Positions 4,928 to 23,825 of a stretch of 38,725 bases of DNA are shown in pieces. Every line of letters starts with the position of its first letter. The stretch's first letter is position 1. Source of the DNA: a virus. Location of the stretch: the IMG/VR virus record IMGVR_UViG_3300025011_000097, positions 1 to 38,725 of that record; one strand, written 5' to 3'. The position numbers were made by a program, and so were the translations under genes. The notes beneath the pieces are model-generated. The model ran no database searches. It had not been told where the DNA came from and saw only the letters and a list, made by a program, of their open reading frames with translations.

Positions 4928-5338
4928 CTATTTTTCTTTTTCACTTTTCTTCTGTAATTGACAAAGCACCTTGCTAATCTCCGGAGGCAATGGAACTCCC
5001 AATATTCCTAAGTTCTCTGTCAGCGATACACCCTCGCGAGCAACATAAAAGTAAATTGCGAGCGTTCGAAGGATCGGGTCAGCATTTCCCACTAGCTCGT
5101 CAAGTAAGACGGCGATAATCAGCACAGCAAGGATTGCTCCTTTGCGAATCCCGCCCCAGAACATTACATCGCTACTCACGCTTTTAGTTTTTATCGCACC
5201 TAAGAGGCCAGTAATATAGTCTGCAACCATTAAGGCAATCAGGACTTTCAGTGCGATATCCCAACCCCCTAGAGCCGCGCTCATGACTGTACAGGCCGCT
5301 GCGATTACTGAACTAAACCAAAGTTCTTTCTCGTTCAT
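4928..5338 (-). CDS. phage holin (holin_4 / toxin-secretion holin family)
   Basis: About 136 aa with several hydrophobic segments: VIAAACTVMSAALGG, a long one around LIALMVADYITGLLGAI, and GAILAVLIIAVLLDELVG. The YITGLLGAIKTK and conserved aromatic/glycine pattern are typical of this holin family. It makes membrane lesions that let the endolysin reach the wall. The start was placed at the ATG at 5338 because AAAGGATGG lies just before it; an in-frame ATG at 5386 would add 16 polar residues. It begins the lysis cassette and is separated from the tail genes by a terminator-like hairpin. Confidence 0.85.
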   Translation of the reverse strand: MNEKELWFSSVIAAACTVMSAALGGWDIALKVLIALMVADYITGLLGAIKTKSVSSDVMFWGGIRKGAILAVLIIAVLLDELVGNADPILRTLAIYFYVAREGVSLTENLGILGVPLPPEISKVLCQLQKKSEKEK

Positions 5339-5412: not shown

Positions 5413-5961
5413 TTATAGTTGCTCAACTGCAGTCGGGACGATATCGGCTTTGGCTTTTACAGTACCGCTTGAGAACACTCTGAACATCTTCCGGCTAGTG
5501 ACTGTTAGCTTGATCTCACTGACACTAGGCGTTGCGGCAAGATTCGTAGTATTAAGCTTTGCCCGGTACTTCAGTTTGTAGCCGGTTAGATCCATACCGA
5601 CAGTAATACCCGGAATATTCGAATCAAGAACATTCACTGCCTGCCAGTTGCTCCAGGTCAAGCCGCCATCTGGTGATAGAGCAGTTTCAATAATGACGTT
5701 AGTACCAGCGCCACCACTCTGAGCCCAAGTGAGTTTTGCGGCCTGTACCTCTCCGCATGGAGAGAGATCCACTGGCTGGCCTTCGTATATCCCACCGCCC
5801 TCATAATAAGCTGTCGAGTTGGCCACATTAAGTAAGTAGTTTAGGATCTGATTGCCATCTAATGCGTCATTCCATGAGGTAGTATCATCAAGGCTCCTAG
5901 TTTCATCTGCAGCCGCAGTGACGTCGTCATATGCTGAATATAGAGCTATTGCTAAGGGCAT
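5413..5961 (-). CDS. putative tail-tip/fibre-associated protein (182 aa)
   Basis: No named family was recognised. The protein starts with a short helical part (MPLAIALYSAYDDVTAAADE), then looks like a beta-sandwich with ETALSPDGGLTWSNWQAV, a pattern common in carbohydrate-binding modules and seen as similar short turns in the big fibre protein at 10636 (FSPDDGATW). It sits directly after the DGR reverse transcriptase and before the lysis genes, so it is probably the last structural gene of the late operon. A role in binding the host surface is an inference from fold-like patterns and position only. Confidence 0.6.
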   Translation of the reverse strand: MPLAIALYSAYDDVTAAADETRSLDDTTSWNDALDGNQILNYLLNVANSTAYYEGGGIYEGQPVDLSPCGEVQAAKLTWAQSGGAGTNVIIETALSPDGGLTWSNWQAVNVLDSNIPGITVGMDLTGYKLKYRAKLNTTNLAATPSVSEIKLTVTSRKMFRVFSSGTVKAKADIVPTAVEQL

Positions 5962-5977: not shown

Positions 5978-7075
5978 CTATTTTCTAAAAAAGGTCAGAG
6001 ACTGCATTAACTTTGTCTTTAGATTATGGCTGTCGCAGTGCATCATAATGCCAAGGTAAGACTGAAGACTGTTGTTTACTTCCTGTAACTCGACATCCCC
6101 TCTGGCATAAGCACGTTGTAGATATCCCAACCTGCGCTTCATTTTGAGAGCGCTCTTCTTTCTGAGCTTTTTGTGTGTTGGCCAAACGCGAAACCCCACA
6201 AACTCAATTCCCTGCGATGCCTTACGAACCATGGTTTTATTGTTGAGCTGAAGATGGAGCCTATCCATTACGAACTCATTAATTTGAGCCATGAGAGCCC
6301 AGAGATACTTTTTATCCTGATGAAGTACAACGACATCATCCATGTAGCGCAGATAGTGTTTAACGTGAAGCGTTTGCTTCGCGTATTGGTCTAACTCATT
6401 TAAGTATAGATTTGCAAACATTTGGCTCGTTAGGTTACCGATCGGCATTCCAACTCCACCGATCCGGTCAGCATCGAATTGATGATCACCTAGTGGGATC
6501 CCAAACTTCGTATGCTCGCACCTTACAATAACATCTAGCAACCAAAGGAGATCCTCGTCGCCAATGCGTCTGCGCAGGATGCCCATGAGTACGTTATGAT
6601 CCACTCGGTAAAAATACTTAGAGATATCTAGTTTAAGCGCATAGAATCGCTCATGTCGTCGGTGCATGTAGCGTAACCAGTATTGCAACCTATTCACGGC
6701 CCTATGCGTTCCTTTATCAACTCGACATGCATAAGAGTCCTGGATAAACCCTTTTTCGAAATAAGGATTAAGAACTTGGTAAATAGCCCATTGAACGACC
6801 CGGTCTTTGAAAGGCAGCGCCATAATAAGACGTTTCTTTGGTTCGTTGACAAAGAATTCCCGGTACCTCCCGACAGTGTATGTTTTTTGGATTAGTTCAT
6901 TCTGTATATTAAGCAAATTCTCCTCGAGGCGATTTGTGAATTTCATGACCTCGATGCGGTAACGTTTACCCTTTCGAGCGTGAATGTAAGCCTGATGCAA
7001 ATTACCGAAATCATAGATTTGATCGTACAAACTGCGAATTTTATGCAATGTTTTATGCCCTTTCGCTTGCGCCAT
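5978..7075 (-). CDS. DGR reverse transcriptase
   Basis: Group-II-intron-like reverse transcriptase of diversity-generating retroelements. In numbering from the upstream ATG at 7111, motif A is KLDISKYF (Asp162) and the catalytic box is RYMDDVVVL (YMDD, 256-259). The diagnostic segment GMPIGNLTSQ (221-230) has IGxxxSQ where other bacterial RTs have QGxxxSP; this change is the hallmark of DGR enzymes and is linked to error-prone copying at adenines. GIEFVGFRVW marks the thumb. With Avd it reverse-transcribes the TR RNA and feeds mutated cDNA into VR. The ATG at 7075 is chosen because AAAGAGG lies 6 nt before it; the ATG at 7111 would add 12 basic residues and has a poorly spaced site. No maturase or endonuclease domain is present. 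Confidence 0.96.
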   Translation of the reverse strand: MAQAKGHKTLHKIRSLYDQIYDFGNLHQAYIHARKGKRYRIEVMKFTNRLEENLLNIQNELIQKTYTVGRYREFFVNEPKKRLIMALPFKDRVVQWAIYQVLNPYFEKGFIQDSYACRVDKGTHRAVNRLQYWLRYMHRRHERFYALKLDISKYFYRVDHNVLMGILRRRIGDEDLLWLLDVIVRCEHTKFGIPLGDHQFDADRIGGVGMPIGNLTSQMFANLYLNELDQYAKQTLHVKHYLRYMDDVVVLHQDKKYLWALMAQINEFVMDRLHLQLNNKTMVRKASQGIEFVGFRVWPTHKKLRKKSALKMKRRLGYLQRAYARGDVELQEVNNSLQSYLGIMMHCDSHNLKTKLMQSLTFFRK

Positions 7076-7111
7076 GCGTGGCCTCTTTCGCGGACTACTC
7101 GCGACCTTCAT

Positions 7112-7220
7112 GGCAATTAAATTTTCTTCCTTTGTTGCTAGGAAGGGAAATGGACCCCTTTGTCCTCTGGTACTGGATAGTATCCCTTAAGATACTAACT
7201 ACTGACTAATTGAGGGTAGA
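7112..7220 (-). ncRNA. DGR spacer RNA between TR and RT (candidate)
   Basis: In the studied Bordetella phage DGR the template RNA includes TR and the following spacer, which binds the RT-Avd complex. The equivalent region here lies between the TR and the RT gene. It holds a perfect 7-bp stem TAGTATC/GATACTA (7179-7185 and 7192-7198) with a 6-nt loop, and no convincing long gene. The assignment is by position and analogy. Confidence 0.45.
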
Positions 7221-7330
7221 GCGGAGCGAAACCCGATGTTCGTGTTCGAATTCGACCGAGGGTTGTTCAAGTTCAAGTTGAACACGCCAGCGTTAGAACC
7301 GTTGTTCCAGTTGCCGCCACGAATCGGGAG
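7221..7330 (-). repeat. DGR template repeat (TR)
   Basis: This 110-bp stretch aligns without gaps to VR at 7804-7913 with 12 differences. In the reading register of the target it would encode an asparagine-rich copy (GGNWNNGSNAGVFN...), with ten AAC codons and one AAT. AAC codons are favoured in DGR templates because adenine mutation gives many amino acids and never a stop. It lies between avd and the RT gene, 30 bp after the avd stop, the same place as in the Bordetella phage system. It is not translated in this frame here; it serves as RNA template for mutagenic cDNA. Confidence 0.95.
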
Positions 7331-7360
7331 CTTAGTATGGTCCATTCCCCATAAGTATAA

Positions 7361-7702
7361 TTATTGCTTTATTGCCTTGATCCATCCACCGAGCATCTTG
7401 CCTATCTCGTTAAGCATTCTGCTCCAGTTTTCGTATTTCTTAAGCGTTAGGTATCTCAATTCGCTGTCCGCTGACAGACGAATCAGAGTTCTAAGGGTAT
7501 CAAGTTCAACGTCGATTTCTTGGAGTGTTGTCTTTTTGTAATAACGTTTGTTGGCCGCGATGATGAGACGAAGGAGCGTGTACATAGATTGCTTGATGTC
7601 AGACGCTAGTGCGTACTTTTCAGACTTGGGAAATTGCTTGAGACATATATTCCCGTAGAGGATCATGTCGTAGGTCTTTTGCAGAATTTTAAGATCTTCC
7701 AA
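7361..7702 (-). CDS. avd: DGR accessory variability determinant (Avd)
   Basis: A 113-aa, largely helical, lysine-rich protein (KRYYKKTTLQ, LTLKKYENWSRMLNEIGKML) with the size and pattern of the four-helix-bundle Avd proteins, relatives of the 23S rRNA intervening-sequence protein family. Avd forms a barrel-shaped pentamer that binds the RT and the template RNA and is needed for retrohoming. Its position between the target gene and the TR is diagnostic. The start appears to be a TTG at 7702 with AAAGGAG upstream at a rather long spacing, which could keep its level low. Confidence 0.88.
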   Translation of the reverse strand: MEDLKILQKTYDMILYGNICLKQFPKSEKYALASDIKQSMYTLLRLIIAANKRYYKKTTLQEIDVELDTLRTLIRLSADSELRYLTLKKYENWSRMLNEIGKMLGGWIKAIKQ

Positions 7703-7743
7703 TGCTTCAGGGTCTCCTTTTTATGTCATCTCGCTAGTCGAGG

Positions 7744-7766
7744 AAAAGGGCGCCCTATCGGGCGCC
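7744..7766 (-). terminator. hairpin downstream of VR: terminator and/or DGR homing hairpin
   Basis: A perfect 7-bp GC stem, GGCGCCC (7749-7755) and GGGCGCC (7760-7766), with a 4-nt loop; on the minus strand it is followed by a run of four T (7744-7747). It lies 24 bp after the target stop and 37 bp after the end of VR. It could end part of the transcripts before avd. GC-rich hairpins with a 4-nt loop just after VR are also known to stimulate retrohoming in the Bordetella phage DGR, so both roles are possible. Confidence 0.7.
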
Positions 7767-7790
7767 TGGCAGATTACAGGGGGTCAGATA

Positions 7791-8975
7791 TCAGAGGACG
7801 AAAGCGGAGCGAAACCCGATGCTCGTGTTCACGTTCGACCGAGGGTTGCCCAAGTTCAAGTAGAACACGCCAGCGCCAGAACCGTTGCCCCAGCTGCCGC
7901 CACGAATCGGGAGGCGTTCACCGTTGTTCCGGAAGTAGATATAATCGCCACCGTGGGCTGAATCTAAAGGGAACAAACCTAAAGCTTTTGCAATATCAGG
8001 TATAGTGACACCTGCATGAGCTGTTAAGGTCTCAAAAGCTTTATTTCCATATGCGGTATCATCCACCTGTGCATTTACTATTGAAGTAGATATTTCAAAG
8101 CTCGTGGATCCCGCCGCGGGAGCGACAGTATAGTCAAATTTCAACGTGTCCGCCGTCCCAGGTGCGACGAGGGAGCCGTCTTGCAAAATAGCCTTCCACT
8201 CAGCACTTACGGCAGATTGGTCTTTAGTGTTATCAGCAGCATTATTGTCAACGAGAATCTGAATCTCCCCATTATTAAGGCGAAGGCCCCCAACCCATTC
8301 GTGAACGTTTCCATTAAGGTCGTATATCCCAAAAGGGCTACCGTCATGAGCCCAAGAGATTGGCCCTGAACCGGTTAATACTCGCGCCATTTTAGTCCCG
8401 TCGAAATAGCTTCCAATACCTTTCTCCGAGCTGACATTTGTGTCTGCCGTGTAATTATTATTCCCTCGAGGCATAAAGCCTTGTTTCTTTGTCGATAGAG
8501 CAATCGCTGACCATTCTGCATTCGTCATGAGATGCCAACCGGTACCTTTTTGTTTGCAAGCCAACGCCGCATTATCCCAATTGATACTGTTACCAGGATC
8601 CATGTGCTTGAGGCTTAGTGCTCTCATGGCCGCTCCAGCACCCACAACGACATTTTGGTATTTCGAGATATGGAGCACAGGCTTTGTTACGTTGTTAACG
8701 ACGAAAGCAGGGTGCATTTTTTGAGAGCTGCCTATGCCTAGATCAGCCAAGGTTTGCAGCAGGAAGGCCACCATAACGGAAGGGTTACCCTGGTCATCGA
8801 ACATTACAGTATTCCGGGCAAAGCTCGCATCCTGCACACGTTCGCGCCATGACCGTTGTTCAGCCGCATCAGTAATAACTCCACCCAACTTAAATCGATC
8901 CGTCAAAGCGAGCTCTATTTCATTGATATCCTTAAGTAGCTGTCCTTGTGTGTACGGTCCGCTAATGTATTGCAT
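7791..8975 (-). CDS. DGR target: C-type-lectin/FGE-fold tail receptor-binding protein
   Basis: 394 aa. The N-terminal ~110 residues are probably the attachment part (PYTQGQLLKDINEIE). From about residue 110 the protein follows the formylglycine-generating-enzyme-like C-type lectin pattern: HLMTNAEWSAIAL, GIYDLNGNVHEWVGG and, at the end, RGGSWGNGSGAGVFYLNLG...IGFRSAFVL. No enzyme activity is implied; this fold displays variable residues in DGR systems. VR covers residues 355-391 up to the last few codons. Positions 361, 363, 367, 372 and 376 differ from TR through adenine changes. The gene overlaps the preceding one (TAATG), so translation is coupled. It most likely forms the tip of the tail fibre and sets host range. 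Confidence 0.92.
   Translation of the reverse strand: MQYISGPYTQGQLLKDINEIELALTDRFKLGGVITDAAEQRSWRERVQDASFARNTVMFDDQGNPSVMVAFLLQTLADLGIGSSQKMHPAFVVNNVTKPVLHISKYQNVVVGAGAAMRALSLKHMDPGNSINWDNAALACKQKGTGWHLMTNAEWSAIALSTKKQGFMPRGNNNYTADTNVSSEKGIGSYFDGTKMARVLTGSGPISWAHDGSPFGIYDLNGNVHEWVGGLRLNNGEIQILVDNNAADNTKDQSAVSAEWKAILQDGSLVAPGTADTLKFDYTVAPAAGSTSFEISTSIVNAQVDDTAYGNKAFETLTAHAGVTIPDIAKALGLFPLDSAHGGDYIYFRNNGERLPIRGGSWGNGSGAGVFYLNLGNPRSNVNTSIGFRSAFVL
7804..7913 (-). repeat. DGR variable repeat (VR) with IMH-like 3' end
   Basis: The 3' end of the target gene, a 110-bp near-copy of TR. Upstream of 7834 all eight differences are coding-strand adenines (seven A to G, one A to T), at 7849, 7850, 7862, 7876, 7877, 7888, 7889 and 7894. 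Near the 3' end there is one more A change (7822) and three adjacent non-adenine changes (7831-7833). These probably belong to the initiation-of-mutagenic-homing (IMH) segment, which is retained from VR. The last 18 bp before 7804 are identical in TR and VR. Confidence 0.95.
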
Positions 8976-9187
8976 TAAAACATACCTCCATCTTCTACTG
9001 GCATTTCAGGGACTGGGAACTTCTCTGCGAAGTTCCGGCGCAAATCAGACTCAAATACTGGCAGGTAAGCCACCGCAGCAGATTCATCGCCCTTTACTGA
9101 GGTTTCACCGGTTAGTTCGACACCTTCATCGGCAAAATCAACTTTGATTATGGTCGTGTCACCATCATTAATAAATTCATGGGTCAT
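8975..9187 (-). CDS. small acidic tail protein, unknown (about 70 aa)
   Basis: Short acidic protein (THEFINDGDTTIIKVDFADEGVELTGE) with no recognised family. Its stop overlaps the start of the DGR target (TAATG), suggesting close translational coupling. It may be a partner or assembly factor for the variable tail protein; that is inference from position. The ATG at 9187 is preferred because GGAGGT lies 9 bp before it; a GTG at 9196 is too close to that site. Confidence 0.65.
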   Translation of the reverse strand: MTHEFINDGDTTIIKVDFADEGVELTGETSVKGDESAAVAYLPVFESDLRRNFAEKFPVPEMPVEDGGMF

Positions 9188-9687
9188 ACTTCCCACACCT
9201 CCACTTTAATACTTGCTCCCTCGCTAATAGCGTAAATTGGAACGTAGATGCCTGGGTCTAATTTAATCTTCACCGCCGCACCAGGCTCAAGCGAGGTACC
9301 GGTTTGTTGGTTGACCCCCGAGGCCCCTATCTTGCAACGCAATACTGGATCCGTGTTCTTAATATACAGCATTCTGCGATTAGCTTTTGCAGAGGCCCCC
9401 GAGAAGATCTCTGCCGCTGTGGCTATGACAGTCTTCAGACCAGTTAGCGGAGCTGCTACTGTTGTCTCTAGATCCGTTACAGACACAGACGTTATTTCTG
9501 TGACAACGGGTATTTTCCCACCGACAGGCGTAACTCCCGTGTCAACTCTGAGCCTTCCTTCGACAATCTCAAGTTCAGTAATCTGTTTATTACCGTGTTC
9601 ATCAAGAATTGGGTCTCCACTAATATCTACGAGTAAGGCATAGCCTTGGAATCGGTCATATAGTACATGGGATCGTGATCTAACCAT
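9184..9687 (-). CDS. tail-fibre region protein, paralogue A (167 aa)
   Basis: Function not recognised. The C-terminal ~85 residues (from LKTVIATAAEIFSGASAK to PIYAISEGASIKVEVWEV) are a clear paralogue of the end of the next upstream gene product at 9717: both contain TAAE, DPVLR, SGVNQQTG, EPGA and ISEGASI. The pattern suggests a small beta-sandwich, as in phage fibre or decoration modules. The N-terminal ~80 residues differ between the two. It overlaps the 70-aa gene by a few bases. Confidence 0.7.
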   Translation of the reverse strand: MVRSRSHVLYDRFQGYALLVDISGDPILDEHGNKQITELEIVEGRLRVDTGVTPVGGKIPVVTEITSVSVTDLETTVAAPLTGLKTVIATAAEIFSGASAKANRRMLYIKNTDPVLRCKIGASGVNQQTGTSLEPGAAVKIKLDPGIYVPIYAISEGASIKVEVWEV

Positions 9688-9716: not shown

Positions 9717-10112
9717 TTATACCTCCTTAACTGATACTTGAATACTAGCACCTTCGCTGATCACGTATATTGGGACTGAAACTCCTGGATCAAACTTAAA
9801 TTTCGCCGTAGCTCCAGGCTCAATAGGGAAACCAGTCTGTTGGTTAACACCCGAAGGCCCAACACGAAAGCGAAGGACAGGATCTTCATTCTTAACTAGC
9901 ATTAGACTTCTGCCACTCTTGGCTGAACCACCAGCAAATACCTCAGCCGCTGTTGCCGTGATCGTCTTAGCTCCTGTCACCGGAGCTAGGTTTGTGATAT
10001 CCCCCACTGCAATCGAGGAAACCTTTGGCTTTGATGTTGTGTCAACACCCTTCACCCAGTCGGACACGTTTTTCCATAGATCTCTTAAGGCTCCCAGTGT
10101 AATCGTTGCCAT
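9717..10112 (-). CDS. tail-fibre region protein, paralogue B (131 aa)
   Basis: Shares its C-terminal domain with the 167-aa protein just downstream, pointing to tandem duplication followed by divergence. Its own N terminus (MATITLGALRDLWKNVSDWVKGVDTT) is helical and could attach to the tail. The ATG has a good AAAGGAG site. No family name can be given; a structural or fibre role is inferred from the fold-like pattern and from its place between the large DUF4815 protein and the DGR target. Confidence 0.7.
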   Translation of the reverse strand: MATITLGALRDLWKNVSDWVKGVDTTSKPKVSSIAVGDITNLAPVTGAKTITATAAEVFAGGSAKSGRSLMLVKNEDPVLRFRVGPSGVNQQTGFPIEPGATAKFKFDPGVSVPIYVISEGASIQVSVKEV

Positions 10113-10613: not shown

Positions 10614-10636
10614 TAGACAGGCCACAAAGGCCTGCC
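10614..10636 (-). other. hairpin directly after the DUF4815 gene
   Basis: As RNA on the minus strand, AGGCAGGCC pairs with GGCCUGUCU (9 bp, one G-U pair) around a 5-nt loop, starting right at the stop codon of the 1105-aa gene. There is no clear T run after it, so it is more likely an RNA-stability or processing stem than a full terminator. Confidence 0.5.
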
Positions 10637-13600
10637 TATTTGATGATATTTAAGAACCTTTTCGCTCGAGGGCGAACCAGTTGACTTGACGCGCTAAGTT
10701 CGACCTGAGCTCGGAAAGTAGTGGCCGGAACTTCCAGTGTATGCGAGAACGTATACCTCGTGAATACCTGGTCGAGCTGTTCGGTCGTGACTGACGATGG
10801 GGTGATCCAAGTCGCTCCGTCATCAGGACTGAATTTAATGACCGCATTAGACCCGGACGGAATCGCAAGATCGAGGACCTGTTTCACTGTAGTGTATTCT
10901 TGCGACAGTGTCACTAAACGACTTACGTATTTAGCTGCTAGGGCATTCTCAAAGCCGATGATGTACGGAGACGCAAGGCTCACTACAGGAGATAGATACT
11001 TACTACTTTTGAGGGTGGCTCTAACCTTGACCTTATTCGCTAGGAAGGATAGTTCTCTCTCAGCGTAGGGGCTAGTTGGCATGAAGGCTCCATCATTGAG
11101 GGAGATCTCCCAGAGTGCGTTCGTCCCTTGCGGCAAGAAGTCATCGACGACCAACAGAACACGGTCAAGCTGTGTCCCTTCTGGCACCGTCCAAGGCTCA
11201 AAATCTAACACGCTACTGGTCTGGAAAGTGCAGGCATAAAGCTTAAATTTCAAGTCCTTCGCTTGATGATCTGTCCAGGTTAAAGCATTCGAAGAGCTAA
11301 ATAACACCCCGACTACATAGGGCTGTCGGGTTACCCATGCGCTAGTCTTAAGATCCTGTTTACCGAGCTCAGCAACCCCTAGGGCATGAACGTTGCTATG
11401 AGAGAGTACCACGACACAGTACTGCTCTTCGGCGCGGCAAAACGACGGTTTTGGAAAGGACACGATCGTCTCTACATCGGCTTTGGAGGAGGCTGTGATA
11501 TCCGACGGTTCCACAAGCTGTTGGGCCAAAACATCCCTGCCGGGGAATCCATTGACCATATTACGGATCTGAACGATCGCCGGAGCATTAAGATCCTTCG
11601 CGGTGAAGAATAAACCAACTTTCGATACTAGGCAGCTCTGTGCCACCGAAAAGCTCTGAGCTAATGGATCAACCGGTTGAATATGAACTTCTCGCGTTAG
11701 GACCGTTGTCTCAGTGATCTGCTTTCGACCTTCCGCTTGATACGTGCAGCTGCCCTCGTTATTCACATTGGCAATGGTAATGAGCCTCGTGCCTGTGCGG
11801 GTACCAGAAGGAATCATAAAGCTACACTTGAACTTCCCTGCTGCATTAGCTCGAACGGATCCAGCCGTTGTGCCTGCCAGTGTTGTCTCAAGTGGTTGAA
11901 GAACCACAGGCTGGCCATCAAAATACCCAATCAGGTTATCTGCACTCGGCTCATAGTTATTGCCTGTGATAATCAGTTCTTTTTGCCTCATGTAGGTGAT
12001 AGCTTCATCCAAGATCTTATCACTAATAACCTGCTGCTGGGTGCTGCTATATGCATCCCAGCCTCGCATATCACCAGCTCCAAGCTCCTCAAATCTTCGG
12101 CGTTCTTCTTCCGCCCACGCAGCCCCCTGGTGGTACCACCAACGTCTAAGGGTAGTGCTCACAACCTCTTTCTCCTCGACAACGACCGTGCCTTGTTCAA
12201 TCCAGTTATCCACCCGCGGATTGACGTTCGTCAAGGTGATTCGATTGAAGACCGCGTAAGGATTGACCAGCATACTCTCTGTTGCGAAGTCTTGATTGAT
12301 GATCAGCTCATGCGCTAGAACCTTACCCGTGGATACATTCTCCCAGCTTTCCGCAGTAGTTGATGCTGGAATCAGCTGCAGCTCGTGAAGGGTATCATCT
12401 GCGCTGAGTGTGATCTCGCTACGTTCTAAATCATACCCAAGAGTAAACCCCGGGAAAGTAGTATCCGCTTTATTCAGAGTAGCAAAACTGTCGGTAAAGA
12501 TCCCTTTGAGATCTGTGGGAGATTCTCCTTGCATTGCTTCATTGTCTAGGCCTTCAACCGCCTGGTTATACTCAATGTCCTCAATGCGTCTGACTAATTT
12601 CTGAATATCTTCCATCGAGTAGCGCACAATAGAGAAAGGGTTAACGATTGCTTGGCCACTATTCGGTGGCAGCGTAAGAGTTCCTAAGGGGAGCATTTCC
12701 CGCGTTGACACTTTTGGGGGTACCACGAATTGCTCAAGGTCACTTTGCCCCCGGATAATGGTGATCAGTCCTTCTTTATCCATGGCCACCAGGTCTTTAC
12801 GTGCTAGGTAGAAATCGTAGTCAATTTGGAAGGTTGACGCATCTACAGGATTATCCCCAGCGGGCGAGAAGTCTGCGTAATACTCTCCATCCGTACTCGT
12901 AAGCGTATAATCCGTATCAAGCACCATCTGCTTGTTATAGCGCCAGGTCACACTAAACGTGGTACCAATAGCTGGCTCGCCCCCTATAAGCGACCAGTCC
13001 ACACTGTTGTTGGTTAACTGGTAGTCTACACCCTGCGTGTAGGTTGTTCCGCCTTGAGAGACAGAAACAATGGAGACAACAGGTGTTTTTGGTAAAAGAT
13101 CCAAGCCTCCAGAAACATTCCCTCGGGTGATGTTCTGCGTGATCTGGACAACACCTACTAAGCGTGAGATCTGCTTCGCTGGCTTATTGTTCAGCTTGTA
13201 AAGGTTCGTCCCTGCCGCAAATACTTTAGGCTCATTGAGGACAGTTCGCGTTTCTAAGGCTTTCTCCACGAGGGTCTTTGTGGATGACATCAGCGCTCGC
13301 TCAAAACCCATTACATAGCCCTTGCCGGGTTCTGTCGTGTGCTCTATGCGAGTCGCGTCATAATCTCGGGCCCACATTCCAAAACCGCTTACTTTGTAAT
13401 TACCGGATTCATCGTAGGTTCTACGAGCTAAGATCGGGCTAATACCATCCAGTTCAGGCGGAGCAATTTGGGTAATAGGTTGCCCGTTGCTCAGTCGTAT
13501 GATCTTGATTGCAGAGCCATCGTTAACTACCCAGAGAGGGCTGACTACTTTACGATCCATCCCGGGTAAACCGAAGTTATCATAACCCACTGCTGGATCA

Positions 13601-13953
13601 AGCAGAGTAGGATCCTGTTCATAGGTTACCACTTCTTCATCTAGCTTTAGGCCAATGGACTCTTCACCTACTCCCGTGATGGCGAGCGTGGTTTCCTGGA
13701 TGTCATGGATTATCCCATCCGCATAAACCGAGCCCGAGGTAATACGAGCGCTCGTTTTATCGTCTGAGATATAAAGCTGGCAGCCGTCAAGGACGTGTCC
13801 TGAACCAAATATTGCGTCACCCAAGCGCTTATCGCGATGCCTCGACATAGATTGGATCTCATTCATTTCTGCGGTCTGAAGCCTTCGCCCAGGTGTTGCT
13901 AATAACTCTGACCATTTTTTTGTTGGGTCGAACCGGTTAGGGTAATTACCCAC
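10636..13953 (-). CDS. large DUF4815-type baseplate/tail-fibre protein (1105 aa)
   Basis: The N-terminal region (NYPNRFDPTKKWSELLATPG, then LDGCQLYISDDKTSARITSG) matches the DUF4815 phage protein family. The middle has strand-rich repeats including WRYNKQMVLDTDYTLTSTDG, and the C-terminal part contains jelly-roll-like modules with LNDGAFMP and FSPDDGATWITP turns. It is probably the main side-fibre or baseplate-rim protein linking the tail to the distal adhesin. It starts with GTG after GAGGTG and is the largest gene of the window. Family recognition is good; the exact place in the virion is inferred from order (after the XkdT/XkdU-like baseplate genes). Confidence 0.8.
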   Translation of the reverse strand: MGNYPNRFDPTKKWSELLATPGRRLQTAEMNEIQSMSRHRDKRLGDAIFGSGHVLDGCQLYISDDKTSARITSGSVYADGIIHDIQETTLAITGVGEESIGLKLDEEVVTYEQDPTLLDPAVGYDNFGLPGMDRKVVSPLWVVNDGSAIKIIRLSNGQPITQIAPPELDGISPILARRTYDESGNYKVSGFGMWARDYDATRIEHTTEPGKGYVMGFERALMSSTKTLVEKALETRTVLNEPKVFAAGTNLYKLNNKPAKQISRLVGVVQITQNITRGNVSGGLDLLPKTPVVSIVSVSQGGTTYTQGVDYQLTNNSVDWSLIGGEPAIGTTFSVTWRYNKQMVLDTDYTLTSTDGEYYADFSPAGDNPVDASTFQIDYDFYLARKDLVAMDKEGLITIIRGQSDLEQFVVPPKVSTREMLPLGTLTLPPNSGQAIVNPFSIVRYSMEDIQKLVRRIEDIEYNQAVEGLDNEAMQGESPTDLKGIFTDSFATLNKADTTFPGFTLGYDLERSEITLSADDTLHELQLIPASTTAESWENVSTGKVLAHELIINQDFATESMLVNPYAVFNRITLTNVNPRVDNWIEQGTVVVEEKEVVSTTLRRWWYHQGAAWAEEERRRFEELGAGDMRGWDAYSSTQQQVISDKILDEAITYMRQKELIITGNNYEPSADNLIGYFDGQPVVLQPLETTLAGTTAGSVRANAAGKFKCSFMIPSGTRTGTRLITIANVNNEGSCTYQAEGRKQITETTVLTREVHIQPVDPLAQSFSVAQSCLVSKVGLFFTAKDLNAPAIVQIRNMVNGFPGRDVLAQQLVEPSDITASSKADVETIVSFPKPSFCRAEEQYCVVVLSHSNVHALGVAELGKQDLKTSAWVTRQPYVVGVLFSSSNALTWTDHQAKDLKFKLYACTFQTSSVLDFEPWTVPEGTQLDRVLLVVDDFLPQGTNALWEISLNDGAFMPTSPYAERELSFLANKVKVRATLKSSKYLSPVVSLASPYIIGFENALAAKYVSRLVTLSQEYTTVKQVLDLAIPSGSNAVIKFSPDDGATWITPSSVTTEQLDQVFTRYTFSHTLEVPATTFRAQVELSASSQLVRPRAKRFLNIIK

Positions 13954-22508: not shown

Positions 22509-23825
22509 CTACCTCACCTGCACTTTCATGTATACTTTTTCGATCGAGTCAACAGTCTGGATATAGGCCCCAACGTATACGGCGTCTGAATCCTCTCCCT
22601 GGGATACCACGATATCCGTTTGAGCATCGAAGTTCTGGATGGCTCCCATCCCTTGGTAGTTCTCGGCTAACTTGATGCAATCTTTCCGGAATAAATTGCG
22701 ACCATCATCGTCATTGTCGACCTTGCCAATATAATACGTCTCATAGACTGCTTTCCAGTCATTAGCAAGCCCATCCATAACGCGAATTGGCCGGTTCTTA
22801 GAAAACTGCTTACCTTTTGTTGGGGTGAAACTCGTGAAGGTATTGATGTCCTGCTCTACAATAGCTTTTCCGCCATTGTGGACAAATACGAACTCACCGT
22901 TTAAAAGGGCTGCTATGATCTGTGGACCGCTATGACGTGGAACGGCATCCAGTGCATCATCATAAGCCTGGTAGGTTAGCGACTGGTTAGCCTCGGCTCC
23001 TGCAGTAGCAGCCGCCACCCATGCGGTAGCTTGTTCTGCCGTAAGAGTCGTTCCATCTGTTAGCGCTACTCCGTTCTTTACGCTGATCACGCCCTCGAAG
23101 TCTGCCGTTGGGTAATTTTCTACGACCAGTTGGATCTTCCGTCCTTCGCCGTCTCGCAAGCGCTTAGCGAATGATACATAAACGGATTTTAAAGTAGCAT
23201 CGGCTGATACTAAGGCCATAGTGTTAAAATCATACAACTCAGCTACGGCCAAGTAATCTGTATGATCTTGATTAGTGCCACTACCATCGGCACCACCACT
23301 CAAAACTACACCAGGGTTAGCAGCAAGGGATCCGACACCCGAGAAATCTACCCAGATGTTAGGTACTAGCCCTGCGATATCGGCAACAGTTTGTGAATCT
23401 ACTTCCTCATTACTGACTGTGGTATTGACATCAAATTTCGTGTTATCATCCAAGTTCGCCTGGACAATAACTTTAATGTCATTTCCTCTTAGGCCGCCAT
23501 ACTTCGCTGTAGCCGTCAGAGATCCGAGAATCGCAGTTGCTTTGGTGCCCGCATTCAACCGATACAGCAATAGAGTCTTAACCCGTTTTAGAGCCTCGCG
23601 GACTAACAATAGCTGCGGGGCCGTGATGTCATACCCTAGCATATCAAAGAGATTACTATCGGCATAAATCGTGTGTATCGTTTTAGGAGCCCCCCAGGAT
23701 AACGCCAAAGCCATTGTCGTGGTTCCACGCTCCCCGACAGTTGATAAGGGTTTGGCTTGACTGTAAATATCGATATATACGCCAGGTCGCACTTTGTTTT
23801 GTGCTACCCATGTTCCACCCGCCAT
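22509..23825 (-). CDS. xkdK: tail sheath protein (XkdK family)
   Basis: 438 aa. Starts MAGGTWVAQNKVRPGVYIDI, the standard N terminus of XkdK/FI-like sheath proteins, with a middle insertion domain (SGGADGSGTNQDH) and the conserved C-terminal domain (VFVHNGGKAIVEQDINTF, RKDCIKLAENYQGMGAI, VDSIEKVYMKVQV). It forms the contractile outer sheath and so defines the phage as a myovirus. AAGGAGG precedes the ATG. Confidence 0.95.
   Translation of the reverse strand: MAGGTWVAQNKVRPGVYIDIYSQAKPLSTVGERGTTTMALALSWGAPKTIHTIYADSNLFDMLGYDITAPQLLLVREALKRVKTLLLYRLNAGTKATAILGSLTATAKYGGLRGNDIKVIVQANLDDNTKFDVNTTVSNEEVDSQTVADIAGLVPNIWVDFSGVGSLAANPGVVLSGGADGSGTNQDHTDYLAVAELYDFNTMALVSADATLKSVYVSFAKRLRDGEGRKIQLVVENYPTADFEGVISVKNGVALTDGTTLTAEQATAWVAAATAGAEANQSLTYQAYDDALDAVPRHSGPQIIAALLNGEFVFVHNGGKAIVEQDINTFTSFTPTKGKQFSKNRPIRVMDGLANDWKAVYETYYIGKVDNDDDGRNLFRKDCIKLAENYQGMGAIQNFDAQTDIVVSQGEDSDAVYVGAYIQTVDSIEKVYMKVQVR

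Follow-up and report, generated by a model that had tools for sequence, protein, structure and literature searches.

Genome Context and Organization of the Locus

The window analysed here is a whole linear virus record of 38,725 nt, in which genes for the tail sheath, tape measure, baseplate, portal, terminase and capsid are found. The minus strand of this myovirus record carries a diversity-generating retroelement (DGR), with the target gene, the gene for the accessory variability determinant (bAvd), the TR and the reverse transcriptase (RT) gene following one another in that order (Table 1). An earlier reading made from the letters of the window (hereafter, the sequence-only reading) had described these four parts as present in the classic order on one strand of a contractile-tail phage. 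Both the coordinates and the family matches agree with this description, and a tail sheath gene (22509–23825; phrog_279; E-value, 4.5e-131) confirms the contractile tail.

Table 1. Components of the DGR in the analysed window.
Feature	Position	Strand	Description
Target (variable protein)	7791..8975	-	394 aa; FGE-subtype C-type lectin fold
VR	7803..7913	-	111 bp, near 3' end of target gene
GC hairpin	7749..7766	-	GGCGCCC-GATA-GGGCGCC; 36 nt past VR
bAvd	7361..7702	-	113 aa, TTG start
TR	7220..7330	-	111 bp, 25 adenines
RT-14 RNA (Rfam RF02921)	7072..7219	-	63.1 bits (gathering 48.1); first base is the base after TR
DGR RT	5978..7048	-	356 aa; probable start TTG 7048; ORF open to ATG 7111

The DGR is flanked on one side by a large DUF4815 gene (10636–13953), which has small genes behind it, and on the other by the genes for holin and amidase. 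Because of this place in the genome and the same gene order in known phages, a tail or baseplate role of the target appears probable. Two neighbouring small proteins (9184–9687 and 9717–10112) have a segment in common (TATAAE[IV]F.G.SAK...) and are apparently paralogues; no match to either of them was found in Pfam or PHROG. At the left end of the record (1–1749), an open-ended ORF of 582 aa on the opposite strand matches phrog_5156, a family of unknown function.

Reverse Transcriptase and bAvd

The RT matches RVT_1 (E-value, 8.3e-20) and phrog_1423 ("Reverse transcriptase"; E-value, 4.6e-142), and the motifs IGNLTSQ and YMDD, both named in the sequence-only reading, can be read in its translation. 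A search against known RTs, of the kind proposed with that reading, returned RTs of phage DGRs, brt of BPP-1 included. The best solved relative was 8ub7 (E-value, 3.8e-59), which we take to be a DGR RT entry and which stands far above the group II intron RTs. It is exceedingly improbable that the enzyme is a group II intron maturase or the RT of a retron or a DRT defence system, with an incidental repeat beside it: NCBIfam models of group II, retron and DRT enzymes do give matches, but these are sub-threshold and far below the cut-offs, and the adjacent bAvd, TR/VR pair and lectin target are decisive. The assignment of bAvd is based on matches to Pfam PF22296 (E-value, 1.5e-36; 125.6 bits against a cut-off of 40), NCBIfam DivGenRetAVD (NF033474; E-value, 9.5e-40; 135.1 against a cut-off of 80) and phrog_3206 ("Avd protein of DGR"; E-value, 2.1e-44).

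The start of the RT gene is probably the TTG at 7048 rather than the ATG at 7111, because the latter lies inside the RT-14 RNA and because in two related loci, L006 and L007, the TTG corresponding to 7048 is the first start available in frame. This TTG is 173, 179 and 171 bases from the TR end in L006, L007 and the window, respectively. In 98 of 140 DGR loci, moreover, the RT frame does not stay open past the site corresponding to this ATG.

TR/VR Pair and Adenine Bias

The comparison of TR and VR in this phage rests on a single genome copy. The two repeats align without gaps, as the sequence-only reading had it, over 111 bp and not the 110 bp given there. They differ at 12 positions, nine of which (75%) are adenines in TR (VR positions 7894, 7889, 7888, 7877, 7876, 7862, 7850, 7849 and 7822); with adenine at 25 of the 111 positions, the probability of at least nine of the 12 mismatches falling on adenines is 5.6e-5 (hypergeometric). 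The remaining three mismatches, which are adjacent, are not at adenines. Among the 140 loci with TR/VR pairs, a count that includes the window, adenines account for at least 75% of the mismatches in 136. No second VR or target gene was found in the window, where the best remaining site has 47 non-adenine mismatches.

All of the codons changed at adenines are AAC in TR and correspond to target residues S361, G363, G367, Y372, G376 and S385. In an alignment of 44 targets, the AAY positions, including the changed codons, are among the most variable columns, with almost no variation in the frame residues that separate them. The adenine changes from TR to VR comprise eight A to G and one A to T. 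This proportion (8/9) was considered as a possible unusual A-to-G bias and dropped, since 48% of the adenine changes in the relatives are also A to G (P = 0.015, for one locus of 130 looked at). In one study of BPP-1, the commonest error was misincorporation of C, which gives A to G (PMC12875486).

The three non-adenine mismatches form one adjacent trio, TTC in TR (7250–7248) and CGT in VR (7833–7831). At the place of the TTC block, CGT is found in the TRs of both nearest relatives, as well as in the VR of L006, and therefore the present VR was not copied from the present TR sequence. Either the TR has changed since homing last took place, or the VR was imported by recombination. Of 130 non-redundant TR/VR pairs, 94 have no mismatch at non-adenine positions, and only 10 have two or more. 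The trio, derived on the TR side, might accordingly be read as the mark of a recently silenced or degenerating DGR, in which the cassette sequence is intact, homing has been lost, and TR and VR are drifting apart. We consider this improbable, as no damage is seen in any of the ORFs, in the catalytic motifs, in the spacer RNA or in the hairpin, the trio is one contiguous block that fits a single event, and the other 83 non-adenine positions are free of drift. The element may home seldom or be silent at present, and nothing in its sequence indicates that it is dead.

Alternatively, recombination with a related phage may have replaced the VR, or else a short segment of TR, leaving a mixed pair in an active DGR. 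Some more distant relatives, L010 and L088 among them, carry AATTCG at this place in their TRs, and the nearest relatives carry AACGTG; in addition, the patchy distribution of an N-terminal extension of the target (see below) indicates that modules are exchanged in this group. Outside the trio, however, the TR of the window is closest to the nearest relatives, so that the exchanged TR tract would have been only a few bases long, and a single multi-base mutation fits equally well. Recombination of this kind is therefore conceivable, although rather unlikely.

A different pattern was observed in the close relative L086, the TR of which (5782–5900) is VR-like and lacks many of the AAC codons of related TRs. 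Between this TR and the corresponding VR (5190–5315), changes go both ways, a pattern suggestive of VR sequence having been written back into TR.

Hairpin and RT-14 RNA

Neither the hairpin nor the RT-14 RNA was named in the sequence-only reading. The hairpin located past VR has a perfect 7-bp GC stem and a GATA loop that fits the GRNA consensus (Guo et al. 2011). According to the literature, homing of BPP-1 needs a hairpin behind VR, and phage DGRs have 7–10 bp GC stems with 5'-GRNA loops (PMC3240598); the distance from VR in the window is slightly beyond the 4–34 bp of the examples in that study. A GC hairpin with a 4-base loop within 110 bases behind VR was found in 95 of the 140 loci, compared with 18 of 700 random stretches, and the loop is GRNA in 83 of these 95. 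None of the 140 loci has a GRNA-loop GC hairpin behind TR. As the hairpin also resembles an intrinsic terminator, uses in homing and in termination are both possible.

All 15 relatives searched contain the RT-14 RNA, its start lying about 4 nt or less from the end of TR. The stretch that separates TR from RT in BPP-1 adopts a fold, brings in the RT-Avd complex and acts to prime the synthesis of cDNA (PMC12875486). Because the RT-14 RNA adjoins TR and the corresponding BPP-1 sequence acts in this way, it is probably the spacer of the DGR template RNA, both in the window and in this RT clade as a whole. A search of the available literature for RT-14 yielded nothing useful.

Target Protein

The sequence-only reading placed a VR of the C-type-lectin/FGE type at the end of the target and proposed that the protein be put through structure prediction. 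The target matches FGE-sulfatase (E-value, 4.2e-7) and phrog_2889 (E-value, 5e-119), and its single sequence finds TaqVP, the variable protein of a Thermus aquaticus prophage DGR (PDB 5VF4), over residues 41–394 (E-value, 2.5e-61); a profile of 44 target homologues finds the same entry at 2.9e-117. The AlphaFold model (pLDDT 94) has a C-type lectin fold with VR at the C terminus and is closest to TaqVP in Foldseek (E-value, 3.1e-42; TM, 0.85–0.89), with weaker structural matches to PvdO, the Treponema variable protein and Mtd. TaqVP itself adopts the C-type lectin fold of the FGE subtype, in which the solvent-exposed variable residues constitute a putative binding site (PMC6328139). The assignment of the target to this type is thus upheld by the family match, the homology to TaqVP and the model fold. 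Based on gene position and homology, the target is a putative tail adhesin that would set the host range.

The suggestion that the attachment domain of the target may be undescribed does not hold for residues 41–394, which TaqVP covers, and may hold for the first 40 residues (window positions 8856–8975). The latter form an additional N-terminal helical extension that does not align with TaqVP. The extension is common to L006, L007, L009, L095 and L107 and is absent elsewhere, including the close relative L086. On the RT tree, four or more gains or losses are needed to explain its distribution (L097, the extension of which is divergent, being placed with the group in this count), and for this reason it looks like an exchangeable module, perhaps an anchor to the tail. 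A broader proposal can be put forward tentatively, its chances being somewhat below even: the lectin head may be a standard part fitted to different tails by a swappable 40-residue anchor, which docks to one specific baseplate and moves among DGR phages separately from the RT, with the RT-14 RNA serving as the spacer of the DGR template RNA across a large group of related Bacillota phages.

Proposed Mechanism and Probable Host

All of the DGR features that can be tested in a sequence are present at this locus, namely, the RT motif, TR/VR mismatches at adenines, bAvd, a lectin target, the hairpin and the spacer RNA. It is almost certain that the element is a complete, apparently intact phage DGR which would work by mutagenic retrohoming. 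The RT together with bAvd would copy the TR RNA, and the structured spacer (RT-14 RNA) just downstream would provide the priming. Misincorporation by the RT opposite TR adenines would then vary as many as 11 residues that are encoded by AAY codons and lie on the binding face of a C-type lectin resembling TaqVP. This lectin would be displayed at the tail or baseplate of a Bacillota myovirus, the host of which is probably Desulfosporosinus-like.

The nearest RTs are those of Desulfosporosinus acididurans M1 (86–87%), a Bacillota bin (82%) and a virus contig (77%), and in the RT tree the window is sister to D. acididurans within Bacillota (support, 98/87). A Desulfosporosinus-like host is likely. 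No RT match at 1e-60 was found in the other 44 searched genomes of the D. acididurans family, and the plasmid records searched contained only distant RTs. In Anaerovorax sp. IOR16, three near-identical copies of a DGR RT were observed (L019, L020 and L021), with a TR/VR pair in L020 and L021 and none in L019.

Comparison with Known Systems

The DGR system and its function in general are already well known. More than 30,000 DGRs have been described from metagenomes, three lineages being found mainly in phages, and their targets are almost throughout C-type lectins (PMC8144416). No paper mentioning both DGR and Desulfosporosinus was found in the literature searched, and the present locus adds a probable Desulfosporosinus-type host to those of phage DGRs that look intact. 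With the set of 140 DGR loci, the GRNA-loop hairpin and the RT-14 RNA can also be compared as cis elements.

The chromosomal DGR of D. acididurans M1 (L006, the same locus as L002) resembles that of the window in cassette order, the N-terminal extension of the target, the hairpin, the RT-14 RNA and an upstream DUF4815-type tail gene, with identities of 86% for the RT and 83% for the target. It differs in that its TR and VR are distinguished only at adenines and in that other lysis genes lie downstream.

In accordance with the sequence-only reading, which regarded the DGR class as known, the closest described systems are those of Faecalibacterium phage FP_Lagaffe, Bacillus phage BalMu-1, the T. 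aquaticus prophage and Bordetella phage BPP-1. FP_Lagaffe is likewise a small myovirus with target, avd, TR and RT followed by lysis genes (target, about 45%; RT, about 49%), but it has a second target gene, in line with target matches at two places in this phage, and its DGR has been reported as active (PMC11792537); the 40-residue extension is lacking in this phage. BalMu-1 has the same order (RT, 59%; target, 38–42%), a shorter target without the N-terminal extension, and another host. The T. aquaticus prophage shares the cassette order, the FGE-subtype lectin fold and the C-terminal VR, whereas TaqVP lacks the first 40 residues and the host is different. BPP-1, the mechanistic prototype, also has an RT (about 40% identical), bAvd, TR/VR and a GRNA-loop hairpin behind VR, but its Mtd is a trimeric multi-domain protein. 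The DGR described here is a well-formed new example of a system type known from phages of related bacteria.
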